From: Pseudomonas sp. CHM02
GTDB lineage: Bacteria > Pseudomonadota > Gammaproteobacteria > Pseudomonadales > Pseudomonadaceae
Direction of reading: 5' to 3'
Length of the DNA stretch: 64,000 bases
Assembly: GCF_000612585.1 (NCBI RefSeq)
Contig: NZ_JFCA01000036.1
Span: 1-64,000 of the forward strand
The translations under genes were made by a program, and so were the position numbers. The first letter of the stretch is position 1. The number at the start of each line of letters is the position of its first letter. This document shows, in pieces, positions 18,599 through 21,445 of the stretch. The notes under the pieces are model-generated. The model was not told the DNA's origin. It saw nothing but the letters and a program-made list of their open reading frames with translations, and made no database searches.

Positions 18599-19081
18599 TC
18601 AACGGATGGGGACTTCCAGGCCCACCTTGACTCGATCCAGCGCCACCAGCGTCTTGAACCACTTCACGTTGGGATTCTCGGCGAACAGTTGCGCGGCAAG
18701 TGCCTGGTACTCCTGCATGCTGGCCACATTGAGCACCAGCACGAAATCCACCTCGCCCGTGACGTAGTAGCACTGCTGCACCTGGGGCACGGAGAAACTC
18801 GCCTTGGTCGCGGTCAGCGCGTCGATGCTGGTGCGCTCCACGGAGACCTCGGCCAGGATGGTGATCGGCTTGCCGGCCTTGACCGGGTCGACCACCGCCA
18901 CGTTCGCGGTGATCACCCCACCCTCTTCCATGCGCTTGATACGGCGTTGCACGGCGGCGGTGGAGAGGTTGACCTTCTCGGCCAGGGCACGCAGGGGCAA
19001 GCCATTGTCGCGTTGCACCAGGGCCAGGATCGACCAGTCGAAGCCGTCCAGGTCCAGCATGGAAGAAGCAGGTTTGGCCAT
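18599..19081 (-). CDS. Lrp/AsnC-family transcriptional regulator
   Basis: 160 residues: N-terminal winged helix (LDGFDWSILALVQRDNG, then LSTAAVQRRIKRMEEGGVI) and a C-terminal RAM ligand-binding domain (SVPQVQQCYYVTGEVDFVLV). Start at 19081 (MAKPASSM) is preferred to 19159 because family members begin just before the first helix. It is divergent from the permease gene, sharing a 119-bp control region, so it probably regulates that gene in response to an amino acid or carboxylic acid. Confidence 0.9.
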   Translation of the reverse strand: MAKPASSMLDLDGFDWSILALVQRDNGLPLRALAEKVNLSTAAVQRRIKRMEEGGVITANVAVVDPVKAGKPITILAEVSVERTSIDALTATKASFSVPQVQQCYYVTGEVDFVLVLNVASMQEYQALAAQLFAENPNVKWFKTLVALDRVKVGLEVPIR

Positions 19082-19138: not shown

Positions 19139-19200
19139 CAATGACGACCGGGACCTCAATACTATCCCAACTCCTCTGGCATGCAGAAATGGAGTGTCTC

Positions 19201-20612
19201 ATGGCGTTTTTGATCCACTTGTCACCGGTGTTGCTGGTGATGTCGATGCTGATGGTGCTGCGCCGCCCGCCGGTGCAGGCCGCCATTGCCGGCGCCGCGC
19301 TGGTGGCGGTGTTGTGGCTGTTCGAGGGGTTGCTGCCGAACGCCGCGCTGGCGGCCTTCCAGGACACGGCGGTGTTGTTCGCCAGCACTGCGTTTGTGAT
19401 TGTGCCGGGCCTGGCATTCGTGATTCTGATCGAACGCATGGGAGTCAACCAGGCCCTCAGTGAATGGGTACAGGCGCTGGGCTTGAAGCGCGCCGAGTTG
19501 GTGTTGTTCATCGTGCTGGGGCTGGCGCCGTTACTGGAGGCCATGACCGGCTTCGGTGTTTCGCTGATCGCCACGGTGCCGTTGCTGCTGAGCCTGTTCG
19601 AACGCCGCATCGCGCTGCGTGTGGCATTGACCGGCATGACGATCATGCCGTGGGGCACCCTGGGCCTGGCGACCGTGATTGGCGCATCACTGGCGCATCA
19701 CTGGCGCATGTGGACGCGACGGCGCTGGCGTCGACTTCGGCGCTGACCAGTGCGCCGGTCTTTATCGTGCTGGCCGCCCTGGCCTCGTACTACTGCGGGG
19801 TGGGCATCAGCCGCGCCTTTGTGGGGTTGGGGCTGCTGTTCCTGGGCGTACTCTACGGGGCGAGCCGTTGGCTGGGACCGGAAGTGGCCGGTGTGAGCGC
19901 GGGGTTGAGCGTGGCCGCCGCGACGTTGCTGCTGGCGCTGCATCGACGCCAGGGCACAACGGCACTGGCCTGGCCGCGCAAAGCCTGGCCCTACCTGGCG
20001 CTGATCATTTGCATCGTGCTGCTCAAGGGCCTCAATGCCTTCACCCACCTGGAAGATGCCTGGGTGGTGCGCGGCATGCATGTCGCCTGGAAACCGCTGG
20101 CCTCCCCCGGCATTGCCTTGCTGCTGGTGCTGTTATGGGTGCACCGCCGTGGCGGCGATGCCTTGCTCGGCGTGCTCGGTGCACGGGCACGGCGGCCGTT
20201 GCTGACGATTTTCTTCTTCCTGGCCATGTCGCAGATGATGGTCAAGGCAGGCTTCCTCGACGGCCTGGTGCAGGTGCTGAACGGGTTGCCGGGTATCGCC
20301 GCAGCGCCGTTGGTGGCGTTGCTCGGTGGGCTGTCGGGCTACATGACCGGCTCCAATGTCGGCGGCAACGCGATCTTCATGCCGGCCGTGGCGCTGTTGC
20401 CCGAGTCGTCACGCGGGTTGTTGGCGGCCGTGCAAAACAGCGCGGCCGGGCATGCCGCGCTGGGTTCGCTGTCGATCGTGATGCTGGTGCTCGGGTTGGC
20501 CAAGACCAGCGCCGAGGAGGAAGGCCAGTTGGTGCGCTTCGGCTTTGCCCTGGCCTGCCTGAACACCGGGCTGGTCGCGTTGGCGGGATGGGTGTTGCTT
20601 GGCGCGCAATAA
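19201..20612 (+). pseudogene. Lactate-permease-family transporter, frameshifted by an 11-bp tandem duplication
   Basis: The reading frame opens at ATG 19201 (GGAG 6 bp upstream) with a membrane protein of the LldP type (LEAMTGFGVSLIATVPLLLSL). After GASLAH near 19700 the frame is lost and stops at 19746; the rest of the protein (VDATALASTSALTSAPVFIV onward, including GGLSGYMTGSNVGGNAIFMP) continues in another frame to 20612. The cause is visible: GGCGCATCACT occurs twice in tandem at 19681-19702. Removing one 11-bp copy restores a single frame of about 466 residues with about 12 membrane segments. Both halves are otherwise intact, so the lesion is recent, reversible by slippage, or a sequencing artefact. 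Confidence 0.88.
19681..19702. repeat. 11-bp tandem duplication inside the permease gene
   Basis: Two direct copies of GGCGCATCACT (19681-19691, 19692-19702) followed by a partial third, GGCGCAT. One unit is 11 bp, not a multiple of three, so its gain or loss switches the reading frame. Confidence 0.95.
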
Positions 20613-20716: not shown

Positions 20717-21445
20717 ATGGCTGAGTCAGTGGTGTGGATTGCCGGGGTCGGCGCGGTCGCGGGGCTGGGCGCGGCCCTGGCGCGACGGTTTGCCCGTGAG
20801 GGTTATCGCGTGGCGGTCAGCGGCAGGAGCCTGGACAAGTTGCAGGCGGTGGTCGCGGATATCGAAGCAAGCGGCGGCAAGGCGAATGCGGTGGTGGCCG
20901 ACTCGGGTATCGAGGCCGAGGTGCTAGAGGCGATCACGCAGGTGAATCAGCTCGGCACACTCAAGGCGGCCATCTTCAACGTGGGCAATTCGGTCTCGGC
21001 ACCGTCGCTGGAATTGAGCGCAGAGCTGTTCGAACAGACGTGGCGCGCCTCTACACTGGGTGGTTTTCTGTTCGCCCGCGAGGCCACCCGCGCACTGCTT
21101 GCCAATGGCGGCGGCAGCCTGTTGTTTACCGGGGCCACGGCCTCGTTGCGCGGCAAGCCGCCGTATACCGCATTCGCAGCGGGCAAGGCCGGGTTGCGCT
21201 CGGTGGCGCAGTCCTTCGCCCGGGAATTCGGCCCGAAGCATGTGCATGTCGCCCATGTGGTCATCGACGGTTCCATCGACGGCGAACGCATCAAGCGCCG
21301 CGCGCCGGAGTACCTGGCCAAGCTGGGTGAAGACGGCTCATTGAAACTCGACGATATCGCCGACGCCTATTGGTACCTGCACACCCAACCGCGCAGCGCC
21401 TGGACCCAGGAGCTGGACCTGCGGCCGTTCAAGGAACCGTTCTGA
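20717..21445 (+). CDS. Short-chain dehydrogenase/reductase, atypical active site
   Basis: 242 residues, Rossmann fold with a modified cofactor loop (GVGAVAGLGAALARRF) and NVGN in place of NAG. The catalytic YxxxK is not standard: the sequence reads PPYTAFAAGKAGLR, putting Phe where the Tyr belongs, with a Tyr three residues earlier. SDRs with FAxxK are known as a divergent subgroup, and their chemistry is poorly defined. GGAGG lies 8 bp before the ATG. It is followed after 14 bp by the CmcJ-like gene, so the two are probably one operon. Confidence 0.85.
   Translation: MAESVVWIAGVGAVAGLGAALARRFAREGYRVAVSGRSLDKLQAVVADIEASGGKANAVVADSGIEAEVLEAITQVNQLGTLKAAIFNVGNSVSAPSLELSAELFEQTWRASTLGGFLFAREATRALLANGGGSLLFTGATASLRGKPPYTAFAAGKAGLRSVAQSFAREFGPKHVHVAHVVIDGSIDGERIKRRAPEYLAKLGEDGSLKLDDIADAYWYLHTQPRSAWTQELDLRPFKEPF

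Follow-up and report, generated by a model that had tools for sequence, protein, structure and literature searches.

Genes put out of frame by a short tandem duplication form an already known class of frameshift pseudogenes, with a repeat unit that is not divisible by three, a short direct repeat bounding it, and an intact copy of the gene in relatives. A frame-breaking duplication is also described in a related fluorescent Pseudomonas, P. tolaasii, where a review gives a 661-bp unit in the regulator gene pheN (gacS) and a reversal of the change (PMC10928948). Tandem duplications in Xenorhabdus lrp mutants were not seen to revert, according to the accessible part of that study (PMC6786866), and the available text on frameshift scars in M. 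tuberculosis makes no mention of tandem duplications (PMC8339072). By the criteria of a 2025 review, phase variation affects a single locus, is reversible, and occurs at a rate that can be detected without selection (PMC11868660). Our literature searches found no 11-bp duplication with revertants and no account of Pseudomonas tandem repeats acting as genetic switches, and searches on short tandem duplications and slippage found nothing on the permease gene studied here.

We analysed a permease gene in a 64-kb stretch of Pseudomonas DNA, referred to in its entirety as the window. This gene shares all three features of the frameshift pseudogenes described above, and we found no difference from them; the event is of an ordinary kind, and only the instance is new. 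We conclude, with a probability of roughly 0.85, that the gene belongs to a group of short LctP-like permeases and was inactivated recently. The frameshift is probably an ordinary, recent one that arose by slippage in a single lineage, and the duplication could be confined to one isolate. The features of the locus are as follows:

18599–19078, minus strand: divergent, intact gene for an Lrp/AsnC-family regulator (Pfam HTH_24 and AsnC_trans_reg)
19201–19746, plus strand: first part of the permease gene (ORF list; 29.9 bits against PF02652, cut-off 27; 96% identity to P. marginalis locus L035)
19681–19709, plus strand: tandem array, 2.6 copies of the 11-bp unit GGCGCATCACT (sequence reading, Tandem Repeats Finder and genome comparison)
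19710–20612, plus strand: second part of the permease gene, in another frame (inside the ORF at 19464–20612; 94% identity to L035 over 298 residues)

The first part begins with the ATG at 19201; the ORF program starts it at an upstream ATG, at 19141, and homology favours 19201, where the alignments of relatives begin. True permease sequence continues to about 19698 and is followed by out-of-frame residues up to the TGA at 19744–19746, while the second part is read in a different frame and has its stop at 20610–20612. These positions agree with the frame break proposed in a preliminary description of this DNA, made from the sequence alone. That description also saw no other damage in the two halves and gave the restored transporter a length of 466 residues; neither part contains a stop in its own frame, and the gene of the intact relative encodes 466 residues. 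The 11-bp duplication shifts the frame after about residue 160–166, giving a predicted product of 182 codons with ~16 foreign residues at its end, as against the 466-residue protein. Such a product would lack about two thirds of the protein and would not be expected to transport. Slippery heptamers of the XXXYYYZ type and homopolymers of at least six bases are both absent from the frame of the first part, and there is therefore no obvious route to translational bypass; we rejected programmed frameshifting because the heptamer is missing.

The array itself reads, over positions 19680–19709, as T followed by two full units of GGCGCATCACT (19681–19691 and 19692–19702) and a 7-bp partial unit, GGCGCAT (19703–19709), just as the preliminary description had it. 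Tandem Repeats Finder, counting from 19680, reported a period of 11, 2.7 copies, 100% matches and a score of 60, the top score among its 23 rows for the window. We also scanned the window for perfect arrays (period 5–60, two or more full copies, matched run of 10 or longer) and found two: the 11-bp array, whose run is 19, and another of period 6, whose run is 11. None of five simulated 64-kb first-order Markov sequences contained more than one array (0 or 1 in each), and the longest run among them was 10; on this comparison with the run of 19 we rejected a chance origin of the 11-bp repeat. In a 400-kb background sample of this genome (20 segments, each of 20 kb), the scan returned 11 perfect arrays with periods of 15, 18, 6, 18, 12, 6, 9, 8, 6, 9 and 8; a period not divisible by three was seen only in the two arrays of 8 bp, both of which had a run of 10. 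The genome does contain longer arrays, since the sample included runs of 30, 25, 18 and 18. A separate 18-bp unit, GCAAGCCCGCTCACCACA, is tandemly repeated on two contigs of the genome (L097, 64–106; L104, 16121–16156) and could be part of a family of intergenic repeats.

The sequence of the array suggests how it could have formed. The unduplicated parent would have carried the direct repeat GGCGCAT, CACT, GGCGCAT, and mispairing of the two 7-bp copies during replication would duplicate exactly 11 bp; a single replication-slippage event, in which unduplicated GGCGCATCACTGGCGCAT slipped by one register, would yield precisely the array observed. The window contains the perfect 7-bp repeat, at a spacing of 11 bp, and the 6.66-Mb genome has just two occurrences of the 18-mer GGCGCATCACTGGCGCAT, which overlap within the array. 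The nearest relative has GGCGCGTCACTGGCACAT at this position (GGCGCGT...GGCACAT), which differs from the perfect repeat at two synonymous positions, and the exact parent sequence is absent from the 43 other genomes read at the site. Some insertion sequences duplicate about 11 bp of their target, and a departed element could in principle have left both copies of such a duplication behind; there is, however, no remnant of an element between the units, and the partial third copy GGCGCAT would have to be explained by coincidence alone, which makes this origin extremely improbable.

We compared the locus with other members of the genus by searching 398 Pseudomonas genomes with the intact protein (E 1e-60 or better). 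The permease was matched in 51 of them, the genome of the window included, and its distribution in the genus is patchy; the searches drew on essentially one sample of genomes, such that their results are not independent of each other. A full-length open frame was present in 47 of the 50 other gene-bearing genomes. The site of the array could be read in 44 loci from 43 other genomes, G127 and G221 among them, and measured 18 bp in all 43, as compared with 29 bp in the window. A second unit of GGCGCATCACT was found in none. Seven further gene-bearing genomes outside the site comparison gave stop-free matches from residue 2 to residue 463 or 465 of 466. The nearest relative found was P. marginalis ICMP 3553 (locus L035, which matches L036 of genome G268 without a difference over 4389 bases), in which the 466-residue permease is intact and which has 90.1% DNA identity to the window over 3.9 kb spanning the end of a TonB receptor gene, the regulator and the permease.

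Three of the 50 gene-bearing genomes lack a full-length frame. In G127 the gene is cut by a contig end. In G237 (L043) it is out of frame, one base off an intact relative in an A7 run; a G run and another A run nearby each differ by one further base, and this break may thus be a sequencing error. The third genome, G038, has a truncated gene. Its locus (L008, 1005–2504) is a regulator–permease remnant set within other sequence, with both outer ends truncated, and retains residues 1–111 of the regulator and 1–304 of the permease. We also considered a plasmid-borne gene and rejected it: the plasmid matches were mainly to the regulator, and the best of them (20 of 82 listed) covered at most 15% of the query.

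An error in assembly or sequencing, the former also among the options of the preliminary description, would mean that the chromosome has one unit and an intact gene, and the single unit in all 43 relatives, a permease gene otherwise free of decay, and a draft genome in 132 contigs would all fit such an error. Against it, the 3.9-kb alignment with L035 shows no net change of frame other than the array, its remaining coding gaps being balanced, and the array, at 29 bp, is shorter than ordinary short reads. Assemblers rarely create a false 11-bp duplication where the array fits inside the reads, and we consider an error of this kind unlikely.

The intact relative's protein, P0001, scored 38.0 bits against the Pfam profile PF02652 (Lactate_perm; cut-off 27), which places it in the superfamily, and 25.1 bits against TIGR00795 (lctP; cut-off 341.15), which leaves it outside the subfamily. 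The assignment to the lactate-permease family in the preliminary description therefore holds for the superfamily and fails for lctP itself. P0001 resembles the LctP/LldP family in passing the Pfam cut-off; it differs in length, with 466 residues against profiles of 522–530, and the match falls mostly in its first half. The second part of the window's gene, searched alone, gave no match to PF02652. The protein is thus best described as distantly LctP-like, and the superfamily match is a weak basis for predicting lactate transport. The genome encodes one other PF02652 member (C27:32407–34017), which scores 700 bits, has an open frame of 574 residues and is presumably the real lactate permease. 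We rejected a lactate-specific function for the broken gene on the failed TIGR00795 cut-off and the presence of this separate, intact LldP-like gene, and for the same reasons a growth test on lactate might well reveal no effect. No meaningful structural match emerged (closest E 0.054), and a hydropathy scan gave overlapping peaks, from which no helix count was taken.

The divergent regulator is read as 160 residues, with its end coordinate inferred from the start codon of a relative; the mechanical ORF extends to 19159. A regulator of this type, divergently oriented, adjoins the permease in 25 of the 43 genomes (flanks of ~1.5 kb, less in G127). It was present in all 25 genomes whose first part is at least 70% identical to that of the window and in none of the 18 with 60–62% identity. 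This arrangement suggests that the regulator may control the permease and that the substrate may be an amino or organic acid. In one relative (L037, genome G327), a one-base frame shift at ~3391 lies near the end of the Lrp-type regulator, placing residues 1–126 and 128–159 in different frames, and the permease beside it is intact. Downstream of the permease, the window contains a short-chain dehydrogenase gene (20717–21445) that has an 86% match in G017, a genome without the permease, and that is absent beside the permease in P. marginalis L035, indicating that the two neighbours have separate histories.

We next consider the age of the break. Relative to L035, dN/dS was 0.063 for the first part, 0.136 for the second part and 0.074 for the neighbouring regulator. 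Pairs of intact relatives gave 0.051–0.094 for the first part and 0.128–0.205 for the second, and the values for the two parts in the window, lying within these ranges, are not out of line. We then assigned changes to branches using L037, L038 and L039 as outgroups, requiring two of the three to agree; sites without two agreeing outgroups, sites at which both ingroups differed from the outgroups, the array and the last codons were left out of the counts. The window branch carried 31 synonymous (12+19 in the two parts) and 8 nonsynonymous (3+5) changes, and the P. marginalis branch 45 (17+28) and 11 (1+10), a match (Fisher p = 1.0) that points to a break that is probably recent. In the first part alone, 3 nonsynonymous changes fell on the window branch and 1 on the P. 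marginalis branch, numbers too small to carry weight. With only 39 changes on the window branch, the 95% interval for its nonsynonymous share is 0.09–0.36, and we estimate by hand, taking a neutral share of ~0.72 from site counts, that no more than about a seventh of the branch was free of constraint. An old, decaying pseudogene was rejected, as there is no nonsynonymous excess on the window branch. The gene shows the pattern of a recent pseudogene, with intact orthologs, one disabling change and no relaxation of selection as yet. Recent inactivation, one of the options raised in the preliminary description, is thus supported by the 18-bp site in 43 of 43 genomes, the full-length frames in 47 of 50 and the lack of excess amino-acid change.

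The same description had also offered a slippage-based on/off switch, that is, phase variation in which the number of 11-bp units changes at a high rate and turns the permease on and off. The tandem repeat is perfect, its unit is not a multiple of three and the reading frame is otherwise sound, all of which such a switch would share, and the reversible duplication in P. tolaasii offers a precedent from a related species. That precedent, however, as described in the review (PMC10928948), involves a regulator and a 661-bp unit with reported reversal, as compared with a permease and an 11-bp unit seen in one assembly. The array holds fewer than three units. What we observe, in the one assembly, is a change at a single site. 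The 2025 review (PMC11868660) demands switching that is reversible and frequent enough to be detected without selection. A tract that is kept or varies among relatives would be expected, though not required, of a phase-variable locus, and the absence of the second unit from all 43 genomes leaves the proposed switch unsupported; we regard it as very unlikely. Also very unlikely is the specific proposal of a young switch that can still revert, broken with two units and working with one, that operates in this strain at a rate relevant in the rhizosphere and whose direct repeat came from synonymous changes in this lineage. Back-slippage from the three-copy remnant is possible, as in any short tandem duplication, but selection of the array as a switch finds no support. 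Were the switch real, a metabolic transporter would join the phase-variable genes of soil pseudomonads.

A recent, ordinary inactivation of the permease carries a caution for the reading of similar loci: one slippage mutation suffices to leave a perfect short tandem repeat in a single genome, and it is comparison with relatives that tells such a mutation apart from a maintained switch. For the family, the short LctP-like permease and its Lrp/AsnC regulator emerge as a pair that is patchy in Pseudomonas and easily lost.
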